From positions 5,766,001-5,830,000 of the forward strand of contig NZ_BAAAYL010000001.1 of assembly GCF_039536205.1 (NCBI RefSeq): 64,000 nt of DNA, read 5' to 3'. Positions 2-22,141 of the stretch are shown here, one piece after another. The notes beneath the pieces are model-generated. The model saw only the letters and a list, made by a program, of their open reading frames with translations, searched no databases and was not told the DNA's origin. The DNA is from Streptomyces sannanensis (GTDB taxonomy: Bacteria > Actinomycetota > Actinomycetes > Streptomycetales > Streptomycetaceae). Position numbers and translations under genes: made by a program. Numbering within the stretch: position 1 is the first letter of the stretch; each line of letters begins with the position of its first letter.

Positions 2-1531
2 CCGCCGGAGGAGGGCGGGCTGTCCCCGCTCGGCCCCTGGCCTGTCCAGGCCCGCATCGCCGACCACCTCGAGATCAAGCAGCCACCCGTCTCCCGCCAT
101 CACCGCATCGAGATCAAGAAGTGGGCGGAGGCCGAGTGGCTGTGCGCCGTCCGTACGGAGCTCGCGGAAATCGTCGAGACCGCCGGCGGGCGGGTCATGA
201 CCGCCCATGAGGCGGCGGCCGAGCTGCGGTCGCGTCATGGCGCCGGCGAGGACACCCCACCGCGCACCCTCGCCCGTTCGCTGGCGGTCGTACGCGCCGC
301 CGTCGAGGCGGAGACCGGCGACGAGACCGAAGGCCACGAGCCGCGGCTTGCCGTCCACCGCCGGGGCGACACCATCCTGCTCGCCTGCGAGTCCCTGCCC
401 GGTACCGACGACCCGAGCCCGCGTGAACTGGCCGACTACGCCTCCGCGCTCGGCACGACGGCGGAGAAGCTGGCCGGGCAGGAGCCGCTGCCGGGGCACG
501 CGGAGGTGGTCCGCGAGCTGCGGGCCGTACCGCCCCCGGAGGGTCTCGCCCCGCTCGCCGACACCCGCCTCGTCACCCTCGGGGCGGCCATAAGCCCGGT
601 CGTCGAGACCACTCCCCGCCTGGAGCTGTATCCGCGCGATCTCGGTCTGGAACGTGCCCTGCGCATCTCGCAGGCCGGTGCGGGCGTGCGGGCGGAGCGT
701 GGCATCACCCCGGTGGAGCTGGTGGCCCGAATCAAGGCCCGGTTCCCGGAGCTCCAGGCGCTGGCCGAGGGCCGCGAGCCCACCCATGTCGAACTGGAGG
801 ACGCCCTCCAGGCGGCCCGCTTCGACCTCCGCTACGACCTCGACACCGACACCTTCCTGCTGCCTGCCGCCCGGACCACCCACACGGTGACCGCGTCGGG
901 TGGCCTGACCAGCCTCCTGCCGCCGCCCCGCGCCGCCTCCCGTGCCGACCGTGAGGACCCGCACGGCGCGGTCCGCGAGCGGCTCGCGGAGCGGGCCCGG
1001 CGCGGCGGCTTTCTGGCCCTGACCGTCAAGGGCGTCCGGCTGCCGGGTACGCCCGAGGCCGTTGCCGCCGCCTTCCCCGTCCGGGCAGTGGACCTGGGTG
1101 AGGTGTTCCTCGCCGAGTTCCAGCGGCTGGTGGCGGAGAAGGGCTACGACTGGCAGATGGTGCTGCGCGCGGACGGCGCCTCCGCCCCCGGCCGCATCAA
1201 GCCGGGCCTGGCCAGCTTCGTCAAGGTGGTCTGGCAGCGGGTCGCCGACGACCTGCGGACCCGCACCACGGCCCCGCGCACGGTTCTGTTCCTGCACGAC
1301 GCCGGACTGATCGCCCGGTACTGGGACGAGGGAGGCCACGCCTTCCTCGTCGCCCTCCAGGGGGCGGCCCGGCGGCCGGCGGAGAACCCGCACGGCGTGT
1401 GGCTGCTCTGCCCGACGGAATCGCGCGCGGCCCAGCCGCTGCTGGACGGCCGGACGGTCGAGGTGATTCCTGGGGACGGGGAACTGGCTTACCTGGACGG
1501 GGCGTTCCTGGAGGCGCTGGGGAGGGTGTGA
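2..1531 (+). CDS. pglW: PglW, BREX-2 serine/threonine kinase, C-terminal part (5' end outside window)
   Basis: The frame is open from the window edge, so only about 510 C-terminal residues are present. PglW is the protein kinase of the type 2 BREX (Pgl) phage-defence system, usually around 1,500 residues; the kinase domain would lie upstream. The visible part starts with a helix-turn-helix-like segment (VQARIADHLEIKQPPVSRHH) followed by long alpha/beta stretches with no catalytic motif that I recognise. The call rests mainly on context: same strand and upstream of pglX, pglY, pglZ, brxD and brxHI, the usual type 2 order. An in-frame ATG at 197 would give a 444-residue protein, but clean coding sequence continues upstream of it, so I treat it as internal. 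It ends in a shared terminator facing an opposing operon. Confidence 0.8.
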   Translation, partial: PPEEGGLSPLGPWPVQARIADHLEIKQPPVSRHHRIEIKKWAEAEWLCAVRTELAEIVETAGGRVMTAHEAAAELRSRHGAGEDTPPRTLARSLAVVRAAVEAETGDETEGHEPRLAVHRRGDTILLACESLPGTDDPSPRELADYASALGTTAEKLAGQEPLPGHAEVVRELRAVPPPEGLAPLADTRLVTLGAAISPVVETTPRLELYPRDLGLERALRISQAGAGVRAERGITPVELVARIKARFPELQALAEGREPTHVELEDALQAARFDLRYDLDTDTFLLPAARTTHTVTASGGLTSLLPPPRAASRADREDPHGAVRERLAERARRGGFLALTVKGVRLPGTPEAVAAAFPVRAVDLGEVFLAEFQRLVAEKGYDWQMVLRADGASAPGRIKPGLASFVKVVWQRVADDLRTRTTAPRTVLFLHDAGLIARYWDEGGHAFLVALQGAARRPAENPHGVWLLCPTESRAAQPLLDGRTVEVIPGDGELAYLDGAFLEALGRV

Positions 1532-1544
1532 GGGGTTTTGAAGG

Positions 1545-1589
1545 GGCGGGGTGCTGTTTCCCGGTTCCGGCCAGGTACAGCACCCCGCC
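1545..1589. terminator. Bidirectional hairpin between pglW and the opposing ATPase operon
   Basis: A perfect 13-bp stem (GGCGGGGTGCTGT at 1545-1557, complement at 1577-1589) with a 19-nt loop fills the 75-bp gap between two convergent genes. T/A-rich bases flank both arms, so it can serve both directions. Confidence 0.75.
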
Positions 1590-1606: not shown

Positions 1607-3055
1607 TCAGGCCACCGGCTTACGCGCGACTCCGCCTCGGCGGCCGATGTCGAAGGCGAGCCGGTAGATGTCCGGCAGGTCGATCGACCTGTTGGTGCGT
1701 TCGGTCATGACACCCAGATCCAGAAGTTCCCGGATGATCTCGTCGTGGTCGTCGAGGTTCCTGGGACCGGTGCCGTGCTCCCCGTCCTTGAGCAGCTTGC
1801 TGATCTCGGAACGCAACTTGTTGCTGTCCCAGGCGAACCACACAACCGAGCGTTCCATCGGCACCTGGCTGCCCCCGAGGAGTTCGACGGCCTTCGCGGC
1901 CCACCCGATGTCGTCCTTCAGCTCGTCGACGCGGTCCGTGGCCGAGGCACTGAGACTGTCCCGGATCGCGTCGTAATGCAGCGGCAGCGTGTGAGTGACC
2001 CATCGCTCGGAGGTGAGCTGCGTTGACCGGAGCAGCGTACGCAGCCACGTACGGGGGCTGACCCGGCCGAGGCCGTCCTGCAGATGATTGGGCACCCAGG
2101 TGTATGTGTGCCCCTTGCGGCGGTCGGTGCCCATGAAGGGGCCCGCGAGGGTGATGAACACCTCTTCCTGCCGCTTCTGGTCCGCGAGGAGATCGACCGG
2201 CGCGATGAACCGGCCCTCGCCCTCCTGCCGCCAGACGCCGGTCGCTTCCCGGAAGGCCTGCGCCTGCTCGCTGGGGTGGTTGCCGAGTTGGTGGAAGAGC
2301 AGCCCGTACAGATTCTCCCGGCTCCAGCCCAGGTCGGTGGCGTTGGCGCCCAGCTTCGAGGCGTCCGCGAAGTCCCGTGGGGCGCTCTTGTACATGTCGG
2401 GCCGCACGAAGATCTTGGCGCGCAGTGTGCCGGTGGTGAGCCGGAGTTCCAGCGCGGCTTCGAACAGTCCGCCGAGCAGCCGGTCGAGCTGCCGTCGGTC
2501 GTTGTGCAAGTGGTCGAGATCATCGAAGAGGAGGACGAGTGACCTGCCCTGCTCCCTGGCCTCGCGGTCGGCGCGTCGCAGGGTGGCTTCGTACTTCTCG
2601 CCGTTCCGCTGCGTCCACTCGATGCGTTCGGACCACGTCTCCAGCGCCTGCACCTCAGGGTGGCGAAGCGCTATGAGAATGACGGTCGACCAGAGGTCCA
2701 GCGGCTTGACACCCGCCTCGACCAGGGCGGCGATGGCCCGCTTTCCGGGGAACACCGGCTCGTCTCCGCCTTCCCGGCCGAACGCGGTGATCACATCGGT
2801 GCGTTGCAGGCGAGGCATCATGTACGACTCGGCGGCGACCCGGCGCAGTTCGGGGTCGGTCAACGCCTTCGCCCAGTACGTCTTGCCCGTGCCGCGCGCC
2901 CCGCGCACGACCGTCACGTCCGGGTCCAGCGCGAGGCGGTGGGAGGACGGGGTGAACATGGTCCGCAGGTCCGGGCTGCTGGTGTTCGCGTCCGGGGCGG
3001 AACCGAGAGCGTCGATCAGCAGCGTGCGGGTCGCCTGGACGGCGGGATCGTTCAT
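1607..3055 (-). CDS. P-loop ATPase, third gene of a cargo operon inside the BREX-2 locus
   Basis: 482 residues. A Walker A motif (GARGTGKT, residues 52-59) and a Walker B (LVLLFDDLDHL, 173-183) define an AAA/STAND-like P-loop NTPase. Downstream helical regions may be a winged-helix or effector part, but I cannot name the family. The ATG at 3055 overlaps the stop of the KGGVGR ATPase by 4 bp, so the two are translationally coupled. No nuclease or membrane motif is visible. It probably works with the two genes upstream of it as a conflict or signalling module. The embedded position between pglW and pglX, on the opposite strand, suggests separate acquisition. Function is inferred from motifs and neighbours only. 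Confidence 0.7.
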   Translation of the reverse strand: MNDPAVQATRTLLIDALGSAPDANTSSPDLRTMFTPSSHRLALDPDVTVVRGARGTGKTYWAKALTDPELRRVAAESYMMPRLQRTDVITAFGREGGDEPVFPGKRAIAALVEAGVKPLDLWSTVILIALRHPEVQALETWSERIEWTQRNGEKYEATLRRADREAREQGRSLVLLFDDLDHLHNDRRQLDRLLGGLFEAALELRLTTGTLRAKIFVRPDMYKSAPRDFADASKLGANATDLGWSRENLYGLLFHQLGNHPSEQAQAFREATGVWRQEGEGRFIAPVDLLADQKRQEEVFITLAGPFMGTDRRKGHTYTWVPNHLQDGLGRVSPRTWLRTLLRSTQLTSERWVTHTLPLHYDAIRDSLSASATDRVDELKDDIGWAAKAVELLGGSQVPMERSVVWFAWDSNKLRSEISKLLKDGEHGTGPRNLDDHDEIIRELLDLGVMTERTNRSIDLPDIYRLAFDIGRRGGVARKPVA

Positions 3056-4428
3056 GACTTGTCCTCGTACGGGTCCAGCACCAGTCTCTCCACCGTGTCG
3101 ACGAACTCGCGGTAGGCGGCGCGGACGAACGGCAGCTCCGGCCATTTGCGGCTGCGCAGCGGATCCAGCCCGACCAGATCGTTGCCGAAAAGGACCGGGA
3201 TGGGCGCGTACGGCTTGTCGTCCACATCGCCCTGCGCGGGAAGGAACGGCTCGGCGTACTCGTCCCCCGGCAGGTTGTAGAGCGTGTCCACGAAAGCGTC
3301 GTAGGCATGCCGGCGCAGGGTGCCCAGCCGGTCTATGTCACCGGCGGAGTGGAACATGGCGGCCACGATCCTGACCCGGTCGCGCAGGGCGCGGGCCCGG
3401 TCCGGGTGCCGCTGCCACTGCGAGAAGAGCATCCGGTAGCCCTCCCACGTGGACGGGTTGTCCACGGCGAAGAGCAGCGCCTGGTCGCAGAGCTTGGTCA
3501 GGGTGACGGCGGCGATGTCGTGAATACCGGCCCGGCTGTCGAGCAGCACCACGTCGATGGGGCGGCCGTCCGCCTCCACCTGCGCCTCGCAGGCGGCGAT
3601 GGCGTCCTCCAGGCGCTGGGCGAACGGACGCGGGGTCCCGCCCGGCTCGTCCGACGGCAGGTCGCTGTAGATGCGGTTGAGCTTCGCGAGGTAGTCGTAC
3701 GGCCGGTCCTTGCGCGGAGTGCCGGCCGCAGGAGCCAGCCAGATCTCACCATTGCCGTGCTCGGGCTGGTGATGGGTGGAGCGGCCGACCAGCTCCAGAC
3801 CGTCGGCGTTGCCGACGGCGGACTCGACCAGGTGGTCCACGATCCCGTGCGGGGGAGCAGCGTCCGGCTCGGTCAGCAGATGGGACACCCCGGGGGACTC
3901 CAGGTCGAGGTCCACGGCCAGGACGCGGTATCCGCGCTCGGCGAGATGCCGGGCGAGGACGGTGGTGGCCGTGGTGCGGCCGACCCCGCCCTTGAAGCCG
4001 TAGAGCGCGACGCGGCGGGTCCGGCGGGTCTCCTTCTGCTCGACCTCTGCGCCCACGGCTGCCCAGTCCCCGCCGACGACGGTCCGTTCGAGGACGGACA
4101 CCCGGCCGGCACCTGCTTCGTCGGGCTCGTCGAGCACGTACAGCTCGGGGGCGTCGAAGAACATCTCCGGGACGAAGAGAGCGCTGGCCGTCTGGACGGG
4201 GTCGTCACCGGCGAAGGGGCCGATCCGGTCGGCGAACGCGCCGCGGAGATGAGAGAGCCAGTCGCCCTCCGGGTCGAGTGGCTCGGGGTCGTTCCTGTCG
4301 TCGACCAGCAGTGTGGCTTGGCCGGACAGGTCACGGACAAGGACGACGTCCCGACCGCTGCCCGCGGCAACTCGGGCGAGCTCGCACGCGATCTCCCAGG
4401 CGTCGTCGAAACGAGGTGGTGAAGTCAT
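3052..4428 (-). CDS. ParA/MinD-like ATPase with KGGVGR variant P-loop
   Basis: 458 residues. An N-terminal region of about 135 residues precedes a deviant Walker A, KGGVGRTT at 146-153. The usual second lysine (KGGVGK) is arginine here. A switch-II-like DSRAG follows, as expected for SIMIBI-class (ParA/MinD) ATPases. KGGVGR-variant ATPases are, as I recall, a recognised family found in bacterial conflict operons. The gene lies 17 bp after the HEPN-like gene and overlaps the next ATPase by 4 bp, so the three form one operon. The substitution is visible at codon 151. Whether it lowers hydrolysis cannot be told from sequence. It is unlikely to be a plasmid or chromosome partition ParA, because no ParB gene or parS array is nearby. 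Confidence 0.8.
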   Translation of the reverse strand: MTSPPRFDDAWEIACELARVAAGSGRDVVLVRDLSGQATLLVDDRNDPEPLDPEGDWLSHLRGAFADRIGPFAGDDPVQTASALFVPEMFFDAPELYVLDEPDEAGAGRVSVLERTVVGGDWAAVGAEVEQKETRRTRRVALYGFKGGVGRTTATTVLARHLAERGYRVLAVDLDLESPGVSHLLTEPDAAPPHGIVDHLVESAVGNADGLELVGRSTHHQPEHGNGEIWLAPAAGTPRKDRPYDYLAKLNRIYSDLPSDEPGGTPRPFAQRLEDAIAACEAQVEADGRPIDVVLLDSRAGIHDIAAVTLTKLCDQALLFAVDNPSTWEGYRMLFSQWQRHPDRARALRDRVRIVAAMFHSAGDIDRLGTLRRHAYDAFVDTLYNLPGDEYAEPFLPAQGDVDDKPYAPIPVLFGNDLVGLDPLRSRKWPELPFVRAAYREFVDTVERLVLDPYEDKS

Positions 4429-4445
4429 CTGGTCAGGTCGCTTCT

Positions 4446-4949
4446 CTACTTCGCGTGGTTGTACGCGGTGATCAGGCTGAGGGCGGCTGCGAGATGCCGG
4501 GCCACGCGCTGGGCGGGCAGCTTGTCGCCGTCAAGGTAGCGGTGTGACTCGTGCCATGCGTCGGATCGCGTCTTGAACGGGTTCTGACGGGGGATGTGTT
4601 TACGGACCTCGGCTCCCCGGCGACCGTTCGCCACGAGCATCAGGTGGTCCCACGCGCCCGGCATGTGACCATGGCTCGCCTTGTATTTGTTCATCCCCGG
4701 CATGCCCTCGATGACCGGGCTGTAGGGCTTGGCGTTCGGCGAATCTTGCACCGAGCCGAAGAAGTCGATGAGCATCGCCTTGGCCACGCACTCCGCCGCC
4801 AGCCCCGCAAGGTGATCGGTCGGCCCGGGGAGCCCACCGCTGTTCGATAACTCAAGCGCAGCTTTATAGAGGTCCTGGCCTGCCTTGAGGAAGGTGTGCC
4901 GGGGGCGCGTCGGAGTGGTCGGAGCCGTCACGACGATCACCTTATCCAT
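4446..4949 (-). CDS. Small HEPN-like protein, first gene of the cargo operon
   Basis: 167 residues from ATG 4949. A GTG at 4931 is better placed behind an AAGG and may be the true start (161 residues). The predicted all-helical layout includes a segment DHLAGLAAECVAKAMLIDFF, typical of HEPN-type proteins that begin with an ECalK-like helix. An RSDAWH segment fits the R-x4-H motif of HEPN ribonucleases and is followed by HRY and a last helix. HEPN domains act as RNases or nucleotidyltransferase partners in toxin-antitoxin and abortive-infection systems. It leads the operon with the two ATPases and is divergent from pglX. The HEPN assignment is by pattern only, since the family diverges strongly. 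Confidence 0.55.
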   Translation of the reverse strand: MDKVIVVTAPTTPTRPRHTFLKAGQDLYKAALELSNSGGLPGPTDHLAGLAAECVAKAMLIDFFGSVQDSPNAKPYSPVIEGMPGMNKYKASHGHMPGAWDHLMLVANGRRGAEVRKHIPRQNPFKTRSDAWHESHRYLDGDKLPAQRVARHLAAALSLITAYNHAK

Positions 4950-5008
4950 GTGATCAAGGGCGCGGGTGGGGTTTTGGGTTGGGCACGGACCTCCAGGGGG
5001 CCCGTACG

Positions 5009-5022
5009 CTGGCAGGATTGGG
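5009..5022 (+). promoter_or_regulatory. Candidate pglX promoter motif shared with pglY
   Basis: CTGGCAGGATTGGG occurs about 60 bp upstream of the pglX GTG. A near copy, CTGGCAAGATTGAG, occurs at almost the same distance upstream of pglY (13976-13989). The CAGGAT/CAAGAT part resembles a Streptomyces -10 hexamer, but no clear -35 is seen. It lies in the 130-bp divergent region between pglX and the HEPN-like operon. Confidence 0.4.
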
Positions 5023-5079
5023 TACATCCGGCGCAGAGGACGCGACGGATGACGCAGTGCGGGGAGAAGGAAGCGGACA

Positions 5080-8000
5080 GTGACGGACAGCGCGGTGGGT
5101 GTGGACCGGGCGGAACGCCTGAAGGATCTGGTCAAGGATCTGAAGCGGCTGGTCGTGAACCTTGAGGACGACCTGCGGGAGCGGACCGAATCCGAGGACG
5201 ACATCCGTGGACGTCTGGAGGCCGAGTACCAGCAGGCGAAGGACGCCCGTCGGACGGCGGCCCGGTACGAGTCCTGGCGCGACGAGCGGGTGACACAGTC
5301 GGCAGCGGCCTGGGTGCTGGCGTGTGTCTTCGTCCGTTTTTGTGAGGACAACGGTCTGATCGAGGATCCCTTCATTGCCGGCCCGGGGGAACGGCTGGCG
5401 CTGGCGGAGGCCCGGCACGAGGCGTTCTTCCGTGAGAACCCGGCGAAGAACAACCGTGACTGGCTGCTTGAGTCCTTCGAGTACCTGGCGAAGTCGAACC
5501 CCACGGCGGCCGGTCTCTTCGACCGTGCGCACAACCCGCTGTGGGACATCACGCCGAGCTATGAGGCTGCGGCGGATCTGCTGTCCTTCTGGCGCCGGTG
5601 GGGCGCGGAGGGCGAGATCCGCTACGACTTCACCGACCCGGAGTGGGACACCCGTTTCCTGGGCGACCTGTACCAGGACCTGAGCGAGCACGCGCGCAAG
5701 ACGTACGCGCTGCTTCAGACCCCGGAGTTCGTGGAGGAGTTCATCCTCGACCTCACGCTGGAACCAGCGGTCGCGGAGCACGAGTTCGGCCTCAACCCGT
5801 CGTGGACCGGCCCCGATGGTGAGGAGCGCAGGGGCCTGCGCACCATCGACCCGGCGTGCGGCTCGGGTCACTTCCTGCTGGGCATCTTCCACCGCTTGTT
5901 GGCCAAGTGGCGCGCTGCCGAGCCGGGTACGCCGGTATGGACCCTGGTCCGCCGCTCGCTGGAGTCGGTGCACGGCTGCGACAAAAACCCGTTCGCGGTG
6001 AGCATCGCCCGGTTCCGGCTGCTGGTGGCGGCGATGCGCGCGGCGGGCGCGGAGAGGTTGGCCGATGCGCCGCCGTTCCCGATCAACGTGGCGGTGGGGG
6101 ACTCGCTGCTGCACGGGCGGGACGCGGCGGGTATCCAGACTGATTTGGACACCCTGTTCGCGGAGATGTCGGTCGGGCGCGAGGAGGGGGCGTTCGCGTA
6201 CTCGACGGAGGATGTTTGGGAGTACGCGAAGCGGGTGGACCTGCTGGGCCGGGGGTCGTACCACGTGGTGGTGGGGAATCCGCCGTACATCACAGTGAAG
6301 GATAAGCAAGAGAAGGAGAACTACAAGAAGGGCTACGATGCGAGCGTTGGCCAGTATGCGCTTTCCGTTCCGTTTGCTCAGCGACTCTTTGAACTGGCGG
6401 TAAAGGGCGCTGGTGGATCTGCTGGGGGCGGCGGACTCGTTGGGCAGATTACTGCCAACTCTTTCATGAAGCGGGAGTTTGGTAAGAAGCTAATCCAGGT
6501 TTTCTTCTGGGAGCGCGTGGAACTTTCGCATGTGATTGATACTTCTGGTGCCTATATTCCTGGACATGGCACTCCGACGGTAGTCCTCATTGGTCGTAAT
6601 AGAGTGCCGAGTGGGAAGCGGAGAGTGCGGGCGGTACTTGGCAAGAAGGGGGAGCCGAGTCAGCCTGTGAGCGCTGCCCAGGGTTTGGTGTGGCGGTCCA
6701 TTCTGGACTTGTATGAACGACCTGGCAATGACTCCGAGTGGGTGAGTGTTGAGGATCTAGAGCGATCCCAGTTGGCGGACTTTCCCTGGTCATTGAGTGG
6801 CGGGGGGGCTGGTCACCTTATGAATCTGATTGCTGGCAGTCGTTCTCAACTTGGGGGAGTTGTCGAAAGCATCGGGTTCTGTGCCGTTACGCGGGAAGAT
6901 GATGCATACCTTGCGAGTCGCGGATTCGGTCAGCGCAGCGATATGTCCAGCGATCATGTGAGGGCACTGCTCGGGGGTGCTGAGGTCCGCGAATGGGGTT
7001 TTGGGCCGGGGGTCGAGGCGATTTTCCCCTACTCTGGGTCAACTCGCTCGGCGGAGAGTGATCCGGGTATGGAGCGAAGACTGTGGCCAAGCCGCGTATT
7101 TCTGCGTCTTCGTAAGGCTCTGTCAGGCACCCAAGAAGAGCAGGGACTTACCTGGTATGAGTACTCAAGCTTCTCGCCGCGACGTTACTGGGCGAAATGG
7201 CTGATCTCCTTTCCCTTTGTTGCCACTCACAACCATTTCTCACTCCGTCGGGACAACAAGGCATTCGTGCGAACTGCGCCCGTGATCAAGCTGCCGGACG
7301 GGGTGACTGAAGACACGCACCTAGCCTTGCTGGGAGTGCTCAACTCGTCGATGGCGTGCTTCTGGCTGAAGCAGGTTAGCCAAGGTAAGGGAGGTAGCGG
7401 TCTCGGCCGTGGCGTCCAGGACGAGGACTGGGAAGAGCGCTACGAGTTCACCGGCACCAAACTCGAAGGATTTCCCCTTCCTGATAACCTCCCGCTGGAG
7501 TTGGGCCGACAGCTTGATGCGCTTGCTCAGGAGCTAGCCACGCACGAGCCGTCCGCAGCCGCGGAATCCAGCGTGCCCACGCAGGCTGGCCTTGGTGAGG
7601 CACGTGCTCATCACCTTCGTATCCGTCAGCAGATGATCGCCGTGCAGGAGGAGCTGGACTGGGAGGTGTGCGGCCTCTACGGGTTGCTCAGCAGCAGTGA
7701 GGTCGCGAAGAGCACCGTGCCTGAGGGCAAGCGCGATGAGACCCCCGAGGTACAGCTCGGTGAGCGCGCCTTCGAGATCGTGCTCGCGCGCAAGGTGGAG
7801 GCTGGGGAGACGGAGACCGCGTGGTTTACGCGCCACGGTTCGACGCCCATCACCGAGATCCCCGCTCACTGGCCCGAGTGGTACCGCGACATCGTCCAGG
7901 CCCGGATTGACCTCATCAACCGCCAGCCCAAGGGCATCGGGCTGATCGAGCGCCCCGAGCACAAGCGGCGCTGGTCTACCGAACCGTGGGAGAAGAAGGA

Positions 8001-8805
8001 GCGGGCTGCGCTGCGGACATGGTTGTTGGACCGGATGGAGAACAACGACCTCTGGTACGAGGTCCGCGACGGGATGCGGAATCCGCGCCCCATGACGGTC
8101 AACAACCTCGCCGACCGGCTCAGCACGGACGAGGACTTCACCTCTGTCGCAGCCCTCTATGCACGCGATCACCTGGGCAAGCCCGACCTGCCCCTCGCGC
8201 AGGTGCTGTCCGAGGTCGTCGCCGACGAGCACGTCCCGTACCTCGCAGCCATCCGCTACAAGGACTCTGGTCTACGTACGCGTAAGGAGTGGGAGGACGT
8301 CTGGAAGTTGCAGCGCGAGGAGGACAAGACCGGGCAGCGGCTCGACATCGAGCCGCCCGCCAAGTACAAGTCCTCCGACTTCCTCAAGTCGTCCTACTGG
8401 GCGAACCGTGGCAAGCTCGACGTGCCCAAGGAGCGGTTCATCTCATACCCCGAGGCCGGTCCGGACGCCGACTCGACGCTGATGCTCGGCTGGGCCGGCT
8501 GGGACCACAAGGACCAGGCGCAGGCGCTCTTCGACCTGCTCAAGGCGCGTGAGCGCGCGGACGGTTGGGGCAAGGAGCGTCTTGTCCCGCTGCTCGCGGG
8601 CCTGCGCGAGGTCATGCCGTGGGTGCTCCAGTGGCACAACGAGTACGACGACGAGTGGGGAGACGCCCCGGCCGAGGAACTTGAGGCGGAGTACGAGAGG
8701 CTGCTCGGCAGGTTCCAGGTGAGCGAGGCCGAGCTGGTCGCGTGGCGGCCGGTGAAGAAGACCGGCGGGCGCAGGGCTGCGCGCCAGGCGCCCCTGGGGG
8801 AGTAG
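5080..8805 (+). CDS. pglX: PglX, BREX-2 adenine-specific DNA methyltransferase
   Basis: 1241 residues from a GTG preceded by GGGGAGAAGG. It is the DNA-modifying enzyme of the Pgl/BREX-2 system and would methylate adenine in host DNA. SAM-binding motif I is DPACGSGHF (residues 257-265) and the catalytic motif is NPPY (400-403), giving a gamma-type N6-adenine methylase layout. The following segment, about 6290-7350, should hold the target-recognition region. Its G+C drops to about 47-52% in lines counted by hand, against about 70% in the 3' part, suggesting exchange by recombination. A G7 run sits in that segment at 6802-6808. The rest of the protein (about residues 800-1241) is a long C-terminal domain found in PglX proteins. 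In Streptomyces coelicolor PglX is toxic without PglZ. Confidence 0.93.
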   Translation: MTDSAVGVDRAERLKDLVKDLKRLVVNLEDDLRERTESEDDIRGRLEAEYQQAKDARRTAARYESWRDERVTQSAAAWVLACVFVRFCEDNGLIEDPFIAGPGERLALAEARHEAFFRENPAKNNRDWLLESFEYLAKSNPTAAGLFDRAHNPLWDITPSYEAAADLLSFWRRWGAEGEIRYDFTDPEWDTRFLGDLYQDLSEHARKTYALLQTPEFVEEFILDLTLEPAVAEHEFGLNPSWTGPDGEERRGLRTIDPACGSGHFLLGIFHRLLAKWRAAEPGTPVWTLVRRSLESVHGCDKNPFAVSIARFRLLVAAMRAAGAERLADAPPFPINVAVGDSLLHGRDAAGIQTDLDTLFAEMSVGREEGAFAYSTEDVWEYAKRVDLLGRGSYHVVVGNPPYITVKDKQEKENYKKGYDASVGQYALSVPFAQRLFELAVKGAGGSAGGGGLVGQITANSFMKREFGKKLIQVFFWERVELSHVIDTSGAYIPGHGTPTVVLIGRNRVPSGKRRVRAVLGKKGEPSQPVSAAQGLVWRSILDLYERPGNDSEWVSVEDLERSQLADFPWSLSGGGAGHLMNLIAGSRSQLGGVVESIGFCAVTREDDAYLASRGFGQRSDMSSDHVRALLGGAEVREWGFGPGVEAIFPYSGSTRSAESDPGMERRLWPSRVFLRLRKALSGTQEEQGLTWYEYSSFSPRRYWAKWLISFPFVATHNHFSLRRDNKAFVRTAPVIKLPDGVTEDTHLALLGVLNSSMACFWLKQVSQGKGGSGLGRGVQDEDWEERYEFTGTKLEGFPLPDNLPLELGRQLDALAQELATHEPSAAAESSVPTQAGLGEARAHHLRIRQQMIAVQEELDWEVCGLYGLLSSSEVAKSTVPEGKRDETPEVQLGERAFEIVLARKVEAGETETAWFTRHGSTPITEIPAHWPEWYRDIVQARIDLINRQPKGIGLIERPEHKRRWSTEPWEKKERAALRTWLLDRMENNDLWYEVRDGMRNPRPMTVNNLADRLSTDEDFTSVAALYARDHLGKPDLPLAQVLSEVVADEHVPYLAAIRYKDSGLRTRKEWEDVWKLQREEDKTGQRLDIEPPAKYKSSDFLKSSYWANRGKLDVPKERFISYPEAGPDADSTLMLGWAGWDHKDQAQALFDLLKARERADGWGKERLVPLLAGLREVMPWVLQWHNEYDDEWGDAPAEELEAEYERLLGRFQVSEAELVAWRPVKKTGGRRAARQAPLGE
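6802..6808 (+). repeat. G7 homopolymer inside pglX, possible phase-variation tract
   Basis: Seven consecutive G fall in codons 574-577 (Gly-Gly-Gly-Ala) of pglX. With seven G the frame is open. Gain or loss of one G would shift the frame within the presumed target-recognition region. It is the longest G run I noticed in the pgl genes; brxD and brxHI have only G6 runs. Confidence 0.8.
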
Positions 8806-13831: not shown

Positions 13832-13941
13832 GTAGCGCCCCCCGTCCCGCTGCCCCGATTCAGATCCGCACCCTACCCAGCCGCTCGATGTGACACACGG
13901 GAAGGGGGCAATGACCGAAGGTGTGGTCGGAAGTGGCGTGG

Positions 13942-13989
13942 ATCTTGCCACGGCCGGGTTCTCGCCACCGCTGGCCTGGCAAGATTGAG
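13942..13989 (+). promoter_or_regulatory. Divergent pglY/helicase control region: long inverted repeat plus shared motif
   Basis: ATCTTGCCA (13942-13950) and TGGCAAGAT (13977-13985) form a perfect 9-bp inverted repeat. It extends to 13 bp if one bulged C is allowed. The right arm overlaps the CTGGCAAGATTGAG motif that also precedes pglX. It lies in the 218-bp divergent intergenic region, about 60 bp before the pglY ATG. It could be an operator, a promoter element or both. Confidence 0.45.
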
Positions 13990-14049
13990 GGGCGCCGACC
14001 AGCGCACCGTTGTGACCACGCCGCCACCGACCGAGGGACTGATCGCCTG

Positions 14050-17000
14050 ATGCCTACGAGCGAGCTCTTCCTGAAGGATGTCATCGACATCAAGGAAGAC
14101 GTCCACGCGGGCGACTTCAAGATCGAGCTCTCTCAGGGATTCAGCGAGACCGACGCCCGGGTCGCCGAATACGTCGTCACCGAACAACTCCAGGGTGCCT
14201 TCCGGCATGCCCTGAGCATCGTCTCGAACGCGGTCCGGACGGGTAACTCCCACGCGGCCTACCTGCACGGCTCCTTCGGTGCCGGTAAGAGCCACTTCCT
14301 CTCCGTGCTGCATGCCGTGCTCAACAACCACCCGGCGGTCGGGACCAAGGCGCGCCTGGCGGAAGTGGCTGCCGCGCACAAGGAGTGGCTGGGGCGTAGC
14401 CGCTTCCTGATGGTCCCCTACCACCTCGTCGGCTCCACCGACCTCGACTCGGCGCTGCTGGGCGGCTATGTGCACACCGTGCGCGAGCTCCACCCCGACC
14501 AGCCTCTGCCCCCGGTCTACCGCGCCGACGCGCTGCTCGCCGACGCCCGGACCCAGCGGGAGTTCCTCGACGACGACGCGAAGTTCCTCCAGTGGCTGGG
14601 CAAGGGCGCTGCTGCCCTCGGTGCGGCGGACGGGACCCCTGTCGAAGCGGACCCCGACGACATGCCCGCCCTCGACATGGGGGAGGCCATGCCGGCGGCC
14701 GGCGGCTGGACCGGCGCGGACTTCGACCGGGCGTTCGGCGCGACCGCCGTGGACGACCCGTACCGGGAGAAGCTGGTATCCGCGCTGCTGGCCGGGCCCA
14801 TGGCTTCGTACGCGCAGGGCGTGCGCGGCGAGGCGGGGGCCTTCGTGCCGCTGGAGAACGGCCTCAAGATCATCTCGCGGCACGCGCAGTCGCTCGGCTA
14901 CACCGGTGTGGTCCTCTTCCTGGACGAGCTGGTGCTGTGGCTCCAGGCGAACATGGGCCGGCACGACTTCGTCCGGGATCAGGTGCAGCGGCTGGTCAAG
15001 CTGATCGAGTCCGCGGACAGCGGGCGCCCGGTGCCCATCGTGTCGTTCATCTCCCGCCAGCGTGACCTGTCCCAGCTCATCGGCACCGACGTGGCGGGTG
15101 CGGACGTCGAGAACCTCGAGCAGCAGATCGAGTACCTCGCCGAGCGCTTCGACGTCGTCGATCTCGAGGACAGCAACCTCGTCGAGATCATCAAGCACCG
15201 GGTGCTCGCGCCCAAGCCCGGCATGGAGTCCGTACGCGACGACGCCTTCAAGATCGTCGAGTCGTCGAACGACGAGGTGCGCCAGGTCCTGCTCGACGCG
15301 CAGGGCCGCACGGAGGCCGGCTGGGACGACTTCCGGGAGCTCTACCCGCTCTCGCCGGCCCTGCTGAACGTCCTCGTCGACCTCTCCGGTGTGCTCCAGC
15401 GCGAGCGCACCGGCCTGAAGCTGGTCCAGGAGCTGCTGCGCCGACGCCGCGACGACCTCAAGATGGGGGAGCTGATCCCGCTCGGCGACCTCTACGACGT
15501 CATCGCGGACCGCACCGGAGCGGCCTTCACGCCGAAGCTGCGCCGTGAATCGGAGATTGCGCACCGCTTCCACCAGCGGGTGCGCGACACCCTGCTGGAG
15601 AAGTACCGGTCGAAGGACGACAAGCGCTTCCAGACCGACGACCGGCTGGTCAAGACACTGCTGCTGGCCGCCCTCGCCCCCAACGTTCCGGCGCTGAGCC
15701 GCCTCACCGGAGGCCGGCTCGCAGCCCTGAACCACGGCACGATCCGCACCCGGGTCGGCGACGCCGGATCGGTGGCCGTCAAGCGCCTGCGGGACCTCCA
15801 GGTGGAGTACGACGGTGAGCTGCGCAGCGAGGGCGACAGCAGCGACCCCGTCTTCCACCTGCACCTGTCGGACCTGGACGTGGAGCCCCTGCTCGAAGAG
15901 GTGCAGGGCGTGGCCGACCAGCTGGGCTACCGCCGGCAGTGGATCAAGGATCAGCTGTGGCGGGCGCTCGGGGTCAAGGACACCCAGGCGTTCGTCTGCG
16001 AGCGGGAGATCGTCTGGCGCGGCACCAAGCGCACGGTGGAGTTCGTGTTCGGCAACGTCCGTGACCCCCACCTGCCGGACGACGAGTTCAGTCCGCAGCT
16101 GCCGGGCAACGTCCGTATCGTCTTCGACTACCCCTTCGACGAGGGCGACCACGCGCCGAGCGACGACCTCAACCGCGTCAACAAGCTGCTGCGCGCGGGG
16201 AAGAGCGAACCGGTCCTGGTCTGGCTGCCGGACTTCTTCTCCGAGCAGACGGGCCGGCAGCTCGGCCGCCTGCTGAAGATCAACTATCTGTTGGAGCGGG
16301 ACCGGCTGGAGGACCACACCGCCACCCGGCCGGCGGAAGAACGCGTCCAGATCCGCAACCAGCTCAAGGCGTCCCGGGACAGCCTCACCGAGCGCCTCAC
16401 CGAGGCCCTGCTCCAGCTGTACGGGATCAACCGTGCCGAGCCCGGCACGGTGGGCGCTCAGGTACCCGATGGCCAGCACCTGGTGTCGCTGCAGCGCGGC
16501 TTCGAGCGGACCAAGCCGGAACCGGCCGTCGGCTTCGAGCAGAACCTGTTCCTGCTAGCGGACGAGATGTACGCGGCGCGCTACCCCAAGCACCCCGACT
16601 TCGACCCGCAGCTCAAGCGCGAGGCCGTCACCCTGGGCGACCTGAAGACGACCCTGGAATGGATCACCCGGGCCATGGCGGACGGCTCGCGCCGGATCGT
16701 GGTCGACAGCCACCACCTCAAGCGGGTCCGCCGCATCGTACACGCTCTCGGCCTCGGCGAGGTCCACGACGGTCCGCTGAACGTCAGCAACGACTGGCGC
16801 CTGCGTATCAACAAGCGCGCCGCCGAGAGCCCGGACTCCGGCCAGGACCTGGCGGTGGAGACGATCCGCGGCTGGATCGCCGAGATGGGCTACGAGGGGC
16901 TGGACCGCAATGTCGCCAATCTGCTGATCGCCTCCTACGCCCTCCTCGACGACCGCACCTGGATCTACCAGACCTCCACGCTGTCCAAGGCACCGGACCT

Positions 17001-18018
17001 GGACAAGATCGGTTCCGGCTACGGGCTCCGGGCGGTCGCGCTGCCGGACGAGGAGACCTTCGGCACCGCGCTGCGACGGGCCGCGGTCATCTTCGGCAAG
17101 AGCGTGCCTCCGGTCCTGTTCGCCCGTAATGTTGCTCAGCTCTCCAGCCAGGTTCGCGAGGTCGCGGAGGAGCACCGCAAGGCCGTGGCAGGCGCCCGTG
17201 ACCTGCTGCAGAAGCATGCCGGACGACTCGGTCTGGCCGGCCCCGGCGGGGCGGAGGCGCCTCGTGTGCAGTCCCTGAAGGCCGCCGCCGATCTGATCGC
17301 GCGCGTCCTGCGTGACAGCGACCCCACACTCGTCCTCCAGGAGCTGGCCGGCGCGGCCTACGCGGTGGGCGACGACGAGATCGGGGCGGCGCTCAAGCAG
17401 GCACCCGCCGTTCGGGACGCGCTGGCGGGCGAGGACTGGCCGACGCTGCTGGACACCGTCCACGAGCTGGCGACGCGTGACGACTCCGTCGGCGACCGTG
17501 CCCGCGCGCTCGTGGACACCGTTCGGAAGGCAGCAGACCGTCATGAGTCCGCCGACGAGTCCCTGGCACCGGTGCTGGACGGCATCCAGGGCTCGGCCAT
17601 GGCCCTGATGCGCGAGGCCACCCGACTTGCGCAGGCAGCCCAGCCGGTGACCCCGCCGCCGGTCACCGTACCGCCGACCGCGGAGGACATCCGGCTCACG
17701 GATCATGGAACTCCGCCCGTTCCGTCCGACCAGCCGGCCGAGGTGGATAAGGACACCGCCCGAGGCGCACGGGACGCGGGCCCCAAGGCCCTCGACACAC
17801 CGAAGGCGGCGCAGGCCGCCCGGGCGACGTACCTTGTGGAGCCGACCCGGCTCGAAGCCGGCCTTGCCGCCACCATGGCGGACCTCAGCGCGGATCTGCG
17901 GACCTTCCTCGCAGCTCATCCCGGCGCCCGGGTTCAGGTGACCTGGCGGGTGGTGGACCAGCACTCCGGCGACTCCGCCGAGTTCACCGGCTCCGACGGT
18001 GAGGAGTCCGGGCACTGA
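14050..18018 (+). CDS. pglY: PglY, BREX-2 large P-loop ATPase
   Basis: 1322 residues from ATG 14050; an upstream frame to 13921 is open but its residues look non-coding. Walker A GSFGAGKS is at 74-81 and a hydrophobic VVLFLDELVLWL supplies a Walker B. PglY is the large ATPase of type 2 BREX, counterpart of BrxC, and is needed together with the kinase, the methylase and PglZ for phage growth limitation. The C-terminal 150 residues are Pro/Thr/Asp-rich and low in complexity before a short folded tail. The stop overlaps the pglZ ATG (TGATG). With pglZ, brxD and brxHI it forms a four-gene unit with every junction overlapping, so stoichiometry is probably set by translational coupling. Confidence 0.92.
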   Translation: MPTSELFLKDVIDIKEDVHAGDFKIELSQGFSETDARVAEYVVTEQLQGAFRHALSIVSNAVRTGNSHAAYLHGSFGAGKSHFLSVLHAVLNNHPAVGTKARLAEVAAAHKEWLGRSRFLMVPYHLVGSTDLDSALLGGYVHTVRELHPDQPLPPVYRADALLADARTQREFLDDDAKFLQWLGKGAAALGAADGTPVEADPDDMPALDMGEAMPAAGGWTGADFDRAFGATAVDDPYREKLVSALLAGPMASYAQGVRGEAGAFVPLENGLKIISRHAQSLGYTGVVLFLDELVLWLQANMGRHDFVRDQVQRLVKLIESADSGRPVPIVSFISRQRDLSQLIGTDVAGADVENLEQQIEYLAERFDVVDLEDSNLVEIIKHRVLAPKPGMESVRDDAFKIVESSNDEVRQVLLDAQGRTEAGWDDFRELYPLSPALLNVLVDLSGVLQRERTGLKLVQELLRRRRDDLKMGELIPLGDLYDVIADRTGAAFTPKLRRESEIAHRFHQRVRDTLLEKYRSKDDKRFQTDDRLVKTLLLAALAPNVPALSRLTGGRLAALNHGTIRTRVGDAGSVAVKRLRDLQVEYDGELRSEGDSSDPVFHLHLSDLDVEPLLEEVQGVADQLGYRRQWIKDQLWRALGVKDTQAFVCEREIVWRGTKRTVEFVFGNVRDPHLPDDEFSPQLPGNVRIVFDYPFDEGDHAPSDDLNRVNKLLRAGKSEPVLVWLPDFFSEQTGRQLGRLLKINYLLERDRLEDHTATRPAEERVQIRNQLKASRDSLTERLTEALLQLYGINRAEPGTVGAQVPDGQHLVSLQRGFERTKPEPAVGFEQNLFLLADEMYAARYPKHPDFDPQLKREAVTLGDLKTTLEWITRAMADGSRRIVVDSHHLKRVRRIVHALGLGEVHDGPLNVSNDWRLRINKRAAESPDSGQDLAVETIRGWIAEMGYEGLDRNVANLLIASYALLDDRTWIYQTSTLSKAPDLDKIGSGYGLRAVALPDEETFGTALRRAAVIFGKSVPPVLFARNVAQLSSQVREVAEEHRKAVAGARDLLQKHAGRLGLAGPGGAEAPRVQSLKAAADLIARVLRDSDPTLVLQELAGAAYAVGDDEIGAALKQAPAVRDALAGEDWPTLLDTVHELATRDDSVGDRARALVDTVRKAADRHESADESLAPVLDGIQGSAMALMREATRLAQAAQPVTPPPVTVPPTAEDIRLTDHGTPPVPSDQPAEVDKDTARGARDAGPKALDTPKAAQAARATYLVEPTRLEAGLAATMADLSADLRTFLAAHPGARVQVTWRVVDQHSGDSAEFTGSDGEESGH

Positions 18019-20807
18019 TGACCCACGCTCTGCCGAAGGTCGGCCGCCGGACCGTCGAAGCACTTCTGGAGCGGAACGCCGCCGCGTTCCGTGACCGGTC
18101 CCTGATGCTGATCCACGGGACGTACACGGCAGGTGCCGCCGCCGAGTTCACCGCCACTGTGGCCGGTGAACCGCGGCGGGTCGTCGTACGCGACGAGTCG
18201 TCGGTCCTGGGGCTGCTCGCCGCATGGCGCAAGCACCGTGTCGAGGAGCCTCCCGGGAGTCTGCTCGTCCTCACCACCGGCGTCGACGACGCGCAGCTCG
18301 GCTGGGACCTGCGCGGACACGCGGTCCGCCGGCGCACGCTCACCGTGGACAAGGCCGAGATCGTCCTGCAGCGCTTCGGCGCCGCAGGGATCGACATGCG
18401 GATGTACCGCGAGGACTGGCTGCTGGACGCCCTGGTCGATGCCGAGCCTGCCGATGGCGGCTGGCCGCGGGTGACCGGAGTACTCACCCGGGACGCGGCA
18501 TTGCGGGCCCTGGCCGTCGAACGCCTCGGGCTGGGCGGGCCCCAGGGGGCCGCGGACGGAGGCAGGGGAGTCGCCCTCGACGCGGACTCCTTGCTGGCCT
18601 GGTCCCGTACGGCGGCGGGTTCCCGCCGCTTCGCCGAACTCGCGGAGACCGAACGCGAGGAACTGAAGAAATGGCTCGGCGAGATCGCCGGGCCCGCCGC
18701 GCCCGTGCTCCTTGCGCTGGCCGAGACAGGTCGCGGCGCGGACGCCATGGCCCTCGGACTGCTCGGCGCGGCCCTGCGCGACCCCGCGGTCAGCCCGGAC
18801 ACCGTCCTCGCCGTCGGTGGGCTCTTCGGGCAGGCGCGGCCGCGCACGGCCGAACTGACTGCTTTCACCGACGCGGTGGAAGGAACCATGATCCGCTGGA
18901 TCGCCGAGGCACGTGGCAACGACCCCGCTCGGCAGCGCGTGTTCGCAGTCCTCGACCGAGCCGATGAGCTGGCCCGTGACGCGGGGCTCACCGCCTCGCT
19001 GGCCGGGAGCCGCTTCCTGCCCGCCGGGTTCACCGCGCAGCTGGGCGCGACGATCGAGGCGGCACGGCAGTCTCCCCACGGAGGGGAGAGCGAGCTTGCC
19101 GAGCTGGCAGGGCATGCCCTGGCCGGGCTCTTCCCCGACCGGGTACGGGTCGCGGAGATGGCCGTTCGTATCGCCCGCTGGCTGCGCCTGCCGGCTCCTT
19201 CCGCAGAAGGGGTGGCGGCAGCTGTCACCCAGCATCTGTCGGACTGGGGGTGGGCCGACCGGGCACTGACGGTGCTGTGGAGCGGCGACCCGGGCGGTGA
19301 CCCCGAGGCCGCACGACACCTGCGTGCCCTGTACGAGGAGGGCCGGGCCCGACGGGACGCGCTGGACGAGGCGTTCGCCCGGCACCTGGCAGCGTGGGTG
19401 TCCCACGCCAGTGCCCAGCATCCGGCCGGGTGCCTCGTCGTGGAGAAGGTGCTGGACACCCTCGCACGGCCGCTGGCCGCGGCCACCCCGCCGCTGCTGA
19501 TCGTGCTCGACGGGATGAGCAGTGCGGTCGCAGCCCAGCTCGGCGAGGAGGTCGAGCGTGAGGGCTGGCGTGAGGTCGTCCCGCGTCCCGCGCCCGGTGC
19601 ACCGGCACGACGGCTCGCAGCCGTGTCGGCGTTTCCGTCGGTGACCCAGGCGAGCCGCGCTTCGCTGCTCACAGGGACCATCGTCGTGGGCGGTCAGTCG
19701 CAGGAGGCGTCGGGCTTCGCGGCATTCTGGCGCAAGCGTCGCAAGGACGCCTATCTCTTCCACAAGGCGTCGATCGGCGGGGACGCCGGGCACTTCCTCG
19801 CCCCGGAACTGCTGCTCGCACTCGCCTCCGACGCTGTGGTCGGGGTTGTGCTCAACACCATCGACGACGCCCTCGACTCCGGCCAGCAAGGCCAGCGCAC
19901 CGCATGGGCCCTGCACGACATCACCTACCTCCGCGAACTGCTCTCTGCCGCCCGCAGCTACGGCCGGCCGGTGGTTCTGGTCTCCGACCACGGTCATGTC
20001 CTCGACCGCGCACCGGGCAAGGGCGCGGCGGAGGTTCCCGGCCCCATCGGGTCAGCGCGCTGGCGGCCCGGCACGGACGCCGGAGACGGCGAAGTGTGCC
20101 TGAGCGGTCCCCGTGTAACGGACGGGGACGGGACGATCGTCGTGCCGTGGCGCGAGGACATCCGATACTCCGGCCGCCGGGCCGGTTACCACGGCGGTGC
20201 TGCGCTCGCCGAGGTCACCGTCCCGGTGCTGGTGCTCGTACCCTCCGCAGGCCAGGTCCCCCAGGACTGGGAGCTGCTGCCCCGGGAGCAGGCTGCGCCG
20301 CTGTGGTGGCGGGCGCCGTCCGCCCCGACACCGGCACCGGACGACGTGGCCGCGCTGCCGGGCGCCGAGGCGAAGCCGAGGACGAAGGGCAAGCCACCGG
20401 CCCAGTCCGAGGGTCTCTTCACCGATGACGATGTCGTCGCCCCTCTGCCGCACGGCAGCGAGCCGTCCGCGACGGTACCGCCGAGCCTGGGCGAACTCGT
20501 GGTGGCGAGCGAGGTGTACGAAGCGCAGAAGGCGTACGTCCGCAAGGCCCCCGAGGCGGGGGTCGTGGCCGCGGTCATTGACCAGCTGGTCGCGGCAGGC
20601 GGCACCATGTCCCCGGCCGCACTGGCCGCGGCGATCTCCGCCACCGGCCGGGTACGGCGCAACATCGAAGGCTTCGTCGCCACCGTTCAGCGGCTGCTGA
20701 ACGTCGAGGGCTACCCCGTGCTCGGCTTCATCGACGCGGGACACACGGTGAAACTCGACGAGACGCTGTTGCGCGGGCAGTTCCTTCCTGCCCAGGACGC
20801 ACGGTGA
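18018..20807 (+). CDS. pglZ: PglZ, BREX-2 alkaline-phosphatase-superfamily protein
   Basis: 929 residues. A PglZ domain is supported by LIVLDGMSSAVAAQL (about 494-508), which supplies a metal-binding Asp, and by VVLVSDHGHVLDR (about 651-663), which supplies a second metal-binding Asp/His pair. PglZ is present in all BREX types and in S. coelicolor suppresses PglX toxicity. The ATG overlaps the pglY stop and its stop overlaps the brxD GTG. The C-terminal 150 residues (after about 780) contain a charged linker and a small helical domain seen in type 2 PglZ. No frameshift or missing core motif is apparent. Confidence 0.92.
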   Translation: MTHALPKVGRRTVEALLERNAAAFRDRSLMLIHGTYTAGAAAEFTATVAGEPRRVVVRDESSVLGLLAAWRKHRVEEPPGSLLVLTTGVDDAQLGWDLRGHAVRRRTLTVDKAEIVLQRFGAAGIDMRMYREDWLLDALVDAEPADGGWPRVTGVLTRDAALRALAVERLGLGGPQGAADGGRGVALDADSLLAWSRTAAGSRRFAELAETEREELKKWLGEIAGPAAPVLLALAETGRGADAMALGLLGAALRDPAVSPDTVLAVGGLFGQARPRTAELTAFTDAVEGTMIRWIAEARGNDPARQRVFAVLDRADELARDAGLTASLAGSRFLPAGFTAQLGATIEAARQSPHGGESELAELAGHALAGLFPDRVRVAEMAVRIARWLRLPAPSAEGVAAAVTQHLSDWGWADRALTVLWSGDPGGDPEAARHLRALYEEGRARRDALDEAFARHLAAWVSHASAQHPAGCLVVEKVLDTLARPLAAATPPLLIVLDGMSSAVAAQLGEEVEREGWREVVPRPAPGAPARRLAAVSAFPSVTQASRASLLTGTIVVGGQSQEASGFAAFWRKRRKDAYLFHKASIGGDAGHFLAPELLLALASDAVVGVVLNTIDDALDSGQQGQRTAWALHDITYLRELLSAARSYGRPVVLVSDHGHVLDRAPGKGAAEVPGPIGSARWRPGTDAGDGEVCLSGPRVTDGDGTIVVPWREDIRYSGRRAGYHGGAALAEVTVPVLVLVPSAGQVPQDWELLPREQAAPLWWRAPSAPTPAPDDVAALPGAEAKPRTKGKPPAQSEGLFTDDDVVAPLPHGSEPSATVPPSLGELVVASEVYEAQKAYVRKAPEAGVVAAVIDQLVAAGGTMSPAALAAAISATGRVRRNIEGFVATVQRLLNVEGYPVLGFIDAGHTVKLDETLLRGQFLPAQDAR

Positions 20808-22141
20808 CCGCCGTCCCGGCCGCCGCGGCGAGCGCGGTCCGGCGGAAAGAGGTGATCGATGCGCTACGACGCGGCACCGTACCCCAGGCGGGCCTCGACC
20901 TGCTCGCGGTCGGGCTGGGACGGTTCGAGACGGCGCTCGACGACGACCTGGGTACCATCGCGCGCGGTGGTGCGGCCTTCCACGCCATCCGTGGCGAATA
21001 CGGCTCCGGCAAGACCTTCTTCGCGCGGTGGCTGGCAGAACGCGCCAAGCGAGCAGGGCTGGCCACGACCGAGGTGCAGGTTTCGGAGACCGAGACGCCG
21101 CTGCACAGGCTGGAGACGGTCTACCGTCGGCTGACCGAGAGACTGACCACCGCGACGCATCAGCCGAGTGCGTTGCGCGCCGTCGTCGACTCCTGGTTCT
21201 ACACCTTGGAAGAGGAAGTCCTCGATGCCGGTGAGACCGACGAAGAGGACGAGGCGGCACTCGCCGCAGCCGTCGATGTCCTCATGGAGCGGCGGCTGGC
21301 CGAGGTCGCCCGGACCACTCCCGCCTTTGCCGCGGCACTGCGGGGCTATCGCAGAGCGGTCGCAGTGGGCGACGGGGCGACGGCCGAAGCGCTGATCGCA
21401 TGGCTGGGGGGACAGCGGTCCGTCGCGGCCTCCGCGCGCCGTGCTGCCGGCGTGCGTGGGGATCTCGACCACTTCGCGGCGCTGGGGTTCCTGCAAGGAC
21501 TGCTCACCGTGCTGCGGGACTGCGGACATCCCGGACTCCTGCTGGTCCTCGACGAGATCGAAACCCTGCAGCGCGTGCGGGGGGACGTACGGGAGAAAGG
21601 CCTCAACGCACTCCGGCAGCTTCTCGACGAGATCGACGCCGGGCGGTTCCCCGGCCTGTTCCTCGTCATCACCGGTACGCCGGCCTTCTACGACGGGCAG
21701 CAGGGGGCGCAGCGGCTGGCACCGCTGGCCCAGCGGCTCGCCACCGACTTCACCACGGATGCGCGCTTCGACTCACCCCGGGCGGTCCAGCTGAGACTGT
21801 CCGGATTCGACCTGCCCCACCTCGGTGAACTGGGTCGCAAGGTCCGGGACTTGTACCGAGACGGGGCGCGTCATCCGGCCCGTGTGGCCGGGCGGGTGGA
21901 CGATGCCTACGTGGACGAACTGGCCGCTGCCGTCACCGGCGGCCTCGGCGGCAAAGTCGGGGTCGCACCTCGTGTGTTCCTGCGCAAGCTGGTGGCCGAC
22001 GTCCTCGACCGAGTGGACGAGTTCGCCGACTTCGACCCTCGGGAGCACTACTCGTTCACCCTCAGGGCCTCGGAACTCACCGAGACCGAGCGCAACGCCG
22101 CGGCGGGGAACCCGGACGACATCGAGCTGGAGCTGCCGTGA
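20804..22141 (+). CDS. brxD: BrxD, BREX-2 ATP-binding protein
   Basis: 445 residues from a GTG that overlaps the pglZ stop. Walker A GEYGSGKT is at 64-71 and Walker B LLLVLDEIETL around 246-256, followed by a sensor-like LVITGTPAFYDG. This matches the BrxD family (ATP-binding, DUF2791-like), which accompanies a Lhr-type helicase in type 2 BREX. The segment between residues 100 and 210 is helical with an acidic loop (DAGETDEEDEAAL). It is coupled to brxHI by a GTGA overlap. Two G6 runs (21406-21411, 21579-21584) are present but the frame is intact. Confidence 0.9.
   Translation: MTAVPAAAASAVRRKEVIDALRRGTVPQAGLDLLAVGLGRFETALDDDLGTIARGGAAFHAIRGEYGSGKTFFARWLAERAKRAGLATTEVQVSETETPLHRLETVYRRLTERLTTATHQPSALRAVVDSWFYTLEEEVLDAGETDEEDEAALAAAVDVLMERRLAEVARTTPAFAAALRGYRRAVAVGDGATAEALIAWLGGQRSVAASARRAAGVRGDLDHFAALGFLQGLLTVLRDCGHPGLLLVLDEIETLQRVRGDVREKGLNALRQLLDEIDAGRFPGLFLVITGTPAFYDGQQGAQRLAPLAQRLATDFTTDARFDSPRAVQLRLSGFDLPHLGELGRKVRDLYRDGARHPARVAGRVDDAYVDELAAAVTGGLGGKVGVAPRVFLRKLVADVLDRVDEFADFDPREHYSFTLRASELTETERNAAAGNPDDIELELP

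Follow-up and report, generated by a model that had tools for sequence, protein, structure and literature searches.

We analysed a window of 64,000 nucleotides from Streptomyces sannanensis (NCBI RefSeq assembly GCF_039536205.1, contig NZ_BAAAYL010000001.1, positions 5,766,001 to 5,830,000 of the forward strand), in which a three-gene operon, with genes here called A, B and C, lies on the minus strand between pglW and pglX of a BREX-2 (Pgl) locus, antisense to both. Our main finding is that A, B and C match, as a contiguous A-B-C operon, all three models of the PADLOC-DB 2.0.0 candidate PDC-M28, and that in the genus of the window this operon (M28 below) is linked to a single clade of pglX. 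M28 is, in other words, an already catalogued candidate defence system, and not the undescribed one that a first-pass annotation of the window had proposed. The PDC names reportedly stem from a preprint. According to the available text of PMC12988326, PDCs are putative candidates obtained from 'guilt by embedding', and most of its core set await validation; in the literature searched we found neither a functional study of PDC-M28 nor a paper naming PDC-M28 or KGGVGR, the motif of B discussed below. Directly established here are the gene order, the families, the predicted folds of A and C, the conserved residues and the one-clade link in one genus. The reading that we prefer, to which we would give about an even chance, is that M28 is an independent, probably abortive module of nucleoside triphosphatases (NTPases) and a HEPN protein, acting as the second line or the partner of one BREX-2 lineage.

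The cohesion of the operon can be judged from 80 related loci, fetched with C as the best 80 of 116, a choice which favours close relatives (loci and genomes are given below by our handles, L and G). Matches to the A, B and C profiles occur together in 70 of the 80, and since, in addition, the three profiles matched are those of one system, the trio is found together beyond chance. The gene order is shared by relatives, and in 68 rows (67 loci and the window, with starts chosen by script) A and B overlap by 4 or 1 nucleotides in 59 cases and B and C in 61; in the window itself, A and B are 17 bp apart and B and C overlap by 4 bp. These spacings, the opposite strand and the splitting of pglW from pglX had all been given by the first-pass annotation, and the coordinates agree with it. 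C stands alone in seven loci (L054, L064, L066, L068, L069, L070, L073), in L076 A alone is missing, only fragments of A are present in L027, L047, L055 and L080, and L005 ends at its contig edge. Five of the C-only loci (L064, L066, L068, L069, L070) form a divergent C clade without A or B, in which those small neighbours that were tried gave no Pfam match, and another, L073, has pPIWI-RE genes alongside. In a phylum-wide sample, full-length C was present in 2 of 396 genomes, both in the genus of the window.

The relation of M28 to BREX-2 is neither universal nor random. The first-pass annotation had suggested a survey of co-occurrence outside BREX loci, and such co-occurrence is indeed found: M28 also occurs away from BREX-2, the DNA fetched around it containing pglW, pglX or pglY in 36 of the 80 loci and none of them in 44, some contigs (L029, L036, L054 and others) being so short that BREX absence there is little covered. 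The trio is co-located and does not always stand by housekeeping genes. Where BREX genes are present, several arrangements occur. In the window and its relatives, A-B-C sits between pglX and pglW in antisense orientation; elsewhere (such as L056 to L061, L065, L067, L078) all genes run in one direction as pglW-A-B-C-pglX. M28 lies between pglY and pglX in L028, L034 and L044, L039 and L045 have pglW-A-B-C followed by other genes and then pglX, and L082, a Thiodictyon metagenome-assembled genome (MAG), has pglX followed by A-B-C-pglY. On the tree of C, which is unrooted, so that gain and loss are not separable, and which leaves out L080 with its fragmentary C, the BREX state changes at least seven times. 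Moreover, the best tree with all BREX-linked M28 rows together is rejected (p-AU 1e-83); these rows do not form a single clade, and the link between M28 and BREX must therefore have arisen or been broken repeatedly.

Seen from the side of pglX, the picture is more orderly. In a sample of 246 genomes of the same genus, searched with A and C, pglX exceeds its cut-off in 59 genomes and C exceeds 100 bits in 21. A lies beside C in 17 genomes, one of which (G167) has fragments only, and 14 of the 16 complete pairs are within 4 kb of pglX, the exceptions being G143 and G190; a divergent C without A is present in G025, G128, G131 and G187, and G007 has weak matches to both. At the level of genomes, pglX is present in 14 of the 21 C-bearing genomes vs 45 of the 225 C-less ones (Fisher p 1.6e-5). 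We then consider the 63 near-full-length pglX matches above 1100 bits among those listed (49 without and 14 with M28), smaller pieces being excluded. All 14 M28-linked pglX fall into one clade of 17, with support of 97 under LG+G4 and 84 under a mixture model, and none of the 46 other pglX has M28. The M28 label changes twice on this tree, as against at least 10 times in 200 shuffles, and the mixture-model tree recovers the clade, again with two changes, a value as low being reached in 0 of 500 shuffles; note that these are quick trees and that close relatives cluster any label. An earlier FastTree phylogeny (33 M28-bearing and 20 M28-less pglX, 3 label changes) was replaced for its biased choice of rows. 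With M28 at 14 of 63 near-full-length pglX in this sample, it is not a general core component of BREX-2.

This confinement to one clade is also an argument for another explanation, which we consider unlikely, namely that M28 regulates or licenses BREX-2 in a subtype-specific manner; its ATPase pair would control the PglW kinase or PglX methylation, the HEPN protein being a non-catalytic RNA- or protein-binding adaptor. In its favour, one can add that in L060 and L082 M28 is co-directional with the pgl genes at short gaps, and that the predicted fold of C resembles BrxC/ORC. However, the position and strand of M28 vary between lineages, and three members of the pglX clade (L101, L105, L123) do without it. 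The genomes of 36 of the 44 non-BREX loci (all but those of the C-only loci and L076) were chosen for a pglX search, which covered 35 of them (all but that of L072), and 28 of the 35 lack a pglX over the cut-off; within the limits of draft genomes, this argues against an obligate part or regulator of BREX-2. The 7 genomes with such a match come close to the genus background of 59 in 246, a rough yardstick only for draft genomes from several genera.

The M28-less members of the clade bear on what the junction of pglW and pglX is. In L155, a protein of 2260 residues of the ProA/Hhe family lies between pglX and pglW (L155:9820-16602), matching the ProA/Hhe anti-phage families with E of 0 and 5e-239, under both curated cut-offs, and in L156 and L157 pglW and pglX are adjacent. 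Given the protein in L155, second-line modules may have a slot at this junction within the clade, an idea for which a single replacement is thin support.

Turning to the proteins, the small product of A is predicted to have the four-helix HEPN fold (AlphaFold2 (AF2), best of five models, predicted local distance difference test (pLDDT) 81, with VIA rows matching HEPN), in line with the class that the first-pass annotation had assigned to it. At E 1, neither Pfam nor NCBIfam yields a match for the copy in the window; its relatives match HEPN_AbiV and PF05168 weakly, and a PDB sequence search with the M28A profile gave nothing significant. The residues conserved in the family (72 rows, numbering of the 167-residue form, although the GTG at 4931 is the likelier start because several relatives begin there) are G49, E53, C54, K57, H95, W132, R137 and Y138. 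In particular, the E-x3-[KR] motif is kept (E53 in 69 and K57 in 68 of the 72 rows), as are H95 (71 rows) and R137 (all 72). The RNase-type R-x4-H that had been read at RSDAWH is there in the window, but it is private to it and no family motif, R128 occurring in 1 of the 72 rows, and we rule it out as the catalytic site. In these rows no conserved H follows the invariant R137 at a distance of 4-6 residues, so that the canonical Rx4-6H is not conserved and any RNase activity would need an alternative site. A further pattern, R-x5-H ahead of helix 2 (R39, present in 52 of 72 rows, and H46), is formed in 45 of the 72 but not in the window; it was set aside since the described HEPN motif lies further towards the C-terminus. 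By its residues, M28A fits the AF0298/AbiV variant of HEPN, with the H of the motif lost, the R kept and another conserved H on the N-terminal side of that R; this variant and the E-x3-[KR] motif are described in the available text of PMC3710099. With AF0298 (2hsb) and AbiV, M28A shares the predicted fold, E-x3-K and the placement of the second H; it differs from them in its two-ATPase operon, in its own W-x4-R-Y signature and in the lack of a Pfam match for the window copy.

It could be asked whether A is an enzyme at all. A could be inactive as an RNase and bind nucleic acid, the active part being C or the N-terminal region of B. The want of a conserved Rx4-6H at the usual place points this way, non-catalytic HEPN domains are allowed for in the available text of PMC3710099, and the N-terminal part of B (residues 1-130) matches no family except PDC-M28B. 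Nevertheless, we find this account doubtful, and hold it to be less probable than the regulatory one.

For the two ATPases, the first-pass annotation stands. M28B exceeds the curated cut-off of the KGGVGR ATPase family NF047398 (196.2 bits against 90), and nothing defining separates it from that family. KGGVGR occupies residues 146-151 and is found in 70 of 73 rows, which makes the arginine at codon 151, in the place of the P-loop lysine, a family trait; in L039 and L045 the motif reads RGGVGR, so that its ParA-type first lysine has gone as well. M28C has kept its Walker A and Walker B residues in all 80 rows, and its model (AF2, pLDDT 86.9) is predicted to be an AAA+ fold of the STAND/ORC-Cdc6 type, with Foldseek and VIA matches to BrxC/ORC-Cdc6 and STAND ATPases; BrxC is the best Foldseek row, and is not among the 50 VIA matches listed. 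What sets M28C apart from BrxC/ORC-Cdc6 and STAND proteins is the lack of a long repeat sensor, together with a PDB sequence search in which the M28C profile gave nothing significant (E 0.22 at best). Against the Sll1717 ATPase family NF047389 it scores 74.1 bits, just under the curated cut-off of 75, and its relatives score 77.6 (L003), 51.7 (L060) and 57.4 (L077) bits.

In the module as we picture it, the HEPN effector A would be held under two nucleotide switches, B of SIMIBI type and C of STAND/ORC type. C may sense infection or an attacked BREX complex and assemble on ATP, B would shift its nucleotide state, and A, once released, would damage RNA through an alternative site made of E-x3-K, H and R-Y, which would halt the growth of the phage and perhaps that of the cell. 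Inside BREX-2, M28 would serve as a second line upon failure or inhibition of the Pgl proteins, and it would act alone in genomes without BREX-2. The closest functional analogues are PrrC beside the restriction-modification system PrrI and PARIS beside BREX, likewise NTPase-controlled effectors nested in modification-based defence, and M28 shares with them its gene placement inside a restriction-type system; by comparison, it has other classes of NTPase, a separate HEPN subunit and no Rx4-6H. Menshen was considered as a relative and rejected, since none of the models that A, B and C match in PADLOC is a Menshen one and no relevant paper was found. The nesting of PrrC with PrrI is described in the available text of PMC3710099 and that of PARIS in BREX in the available text of PMC12839542, which also mentions, in general terms, HEPN nucleases in the neighbourhood of BREX loci and whose main text contains no Sll1717, KGGVG or AbiV.

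That M28 is no more than cargo, mobile genes that came to reside in BREX-2 and do not cooperate with it, strikes us as very improbable, for although another type of module fills the same slot once and the window has a helicase-PLD gene between its pglX and pglY, M28 is limited to one pglX clade in the genus sample. A bolder version of the reading that we prefer would have M28 mark and complete a BREX-2 subtype: the slot of one PglX clade would be refilled, in varied positions, by second-line modules, whether related to each other or not, with M28 as the chief one, and M28 would guard Pgl, using its STAND/ORC ATPase to read the state of the BrxC-like complex and to fire the alternative-site HEPN. 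We put it forward tentatively, as somewhat better than the regulatory explanation and still rather more likely wrong than right.

The features of the locus are collected in the table.

Table. Features of the M28 operon and the adjoining BREX-2 genes (window coordinates).
Feature	Position	Strand	Size and evidence
pglW, C-terminal part only in window	2..1531	+	NF033442 335.7 bits (translation of 197-1531; profile 973-1389)
Hairpin between convergent pglW and M28C ends	1545..1589		-36.9 kcal/mol, z -4.97, 0/200 shuffles as low
M28C	1607..3055	-	482 aa from ATG; PDC-M28C 2e-142; frame open further up to 3145
M28B, ParA/MinD-like (SIMIBI-type) ATPase	3052..4428	-	458 aa; PDC-M28B 1.6e-116; NF047398
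M28A	4446..4949	-	167 aa from ATG 4949; 161 aa from GTG 4931; PDC-M28A 2e-19
Divergent intergenic region, M28A to pglX	4950..5079		130 bp; sequence
pglX, BREX-2 adenine methyltransferase	5080..8805	+	NF033451 1755 bits
pglY	13921..18018	+	PADLOC BrxC/PglY 1310 bits; NF047891 892 bits, below its 1700 cut-off

The hairpin is a possible bidirectional terminator, and is not listed by the T-tract terminator scan; the divergent region presumably holds the promoters of both M28A and pglX, a promoter scan giving no sigma-70-like match there. The genes after pglY we take to be pglZ (18018-20807), brxD (20804-22141) and brxHI (22138-24267), all on the plus strand, with names that follow the BREX-2 gene order; homologues of this stretch (18018..24267) come after pglY in like order in L082. 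Between pglX and pglY lies an SF1 helicase with a C-terminal PLD domain (10544-13951, minus strand), possibly a second nested defence gene, with weak likeness to MkoA/MkoC (Mokosh) of PADLOC. L003, L006, L007 and L008 have matches to it of varying strength, likewise on that side of pglX, and another is beside pglW in the M28-less L158.

The genome of the window carries a full-length pglW at this locus (1564 bits, G000:C1:5763185-5767516) and two further BREX-2 loci. In the second, the pglW match (5918782-5923332) and the pglX match (5923395-5926973) are adjacent with no M28 between, the pglW frame ending 9 bases ahead of the first aligned pglX codon, in line with the adjacency that the first-pass annotation gave for S. 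coelicolor; this pglX (L112) falls outside the M28-linked clade. The third is decayed (G000:C1:5363309-5367509, about 5363-5368 kb; L091, L002, L085, L086), retaining pieces of pglW and, of M28C, no more than the last 74 residues, in the same relative orientation as in the window. It also has an ORF of 486 residues which, by eye, is like a gene that L005 to L009 carry between M28C and pglW. This latter gene is conserved and of about 470 residues (L005:1899-3317, with homologues in L006 to L009), and its L005 copy has no NCBIfam match at 0.001; in L021, an additional ParA-like gene (L021:11959-13320) lies between M28C and pglW.

Around the non-BREX loci, a scan of 119 of the 166 neighbouring ORFs gave scattered PADLOC matches (1e-10) to 49 families; one L081 helicase alone matches many of these, and among the 25 families listed, only one is matched by more than one member. 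By eye, no recurrent defence family appears among the neighbour clusters as a constant partner. Single cases are a DrmD/DrmA-like helicase downstream of M28 in L081 and a caspase-domain gene just upstream of it in a Thermoanaerobaculia MAG (L079:7211-8158). Other loci have ordinary genes for neighbours: in Proteobacteria, M28 lies directly upstream of recC (L075:11437-14955) or between yebC and ruvC (L074:11447-11986).

In the literature searched, we did not come across the HEPN assignment within M28, the clade-specific link to BREX-2 or the idea of a slot, the family itself having been catalogued before. Convincing evidence for the phage-methylation models proposed for BREX-2 (Pgl) is still missing, according to the available text of PMC12839542, and its mechanism is unsettled. 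For a candidate catalogued by genomic embedding, the present analysis offers a putative function, a HEPN effector under two NTPases, together with named residues, and the link of such a module to a single PglX clade would allow Pgl systems with and without M28 to be compared directly.

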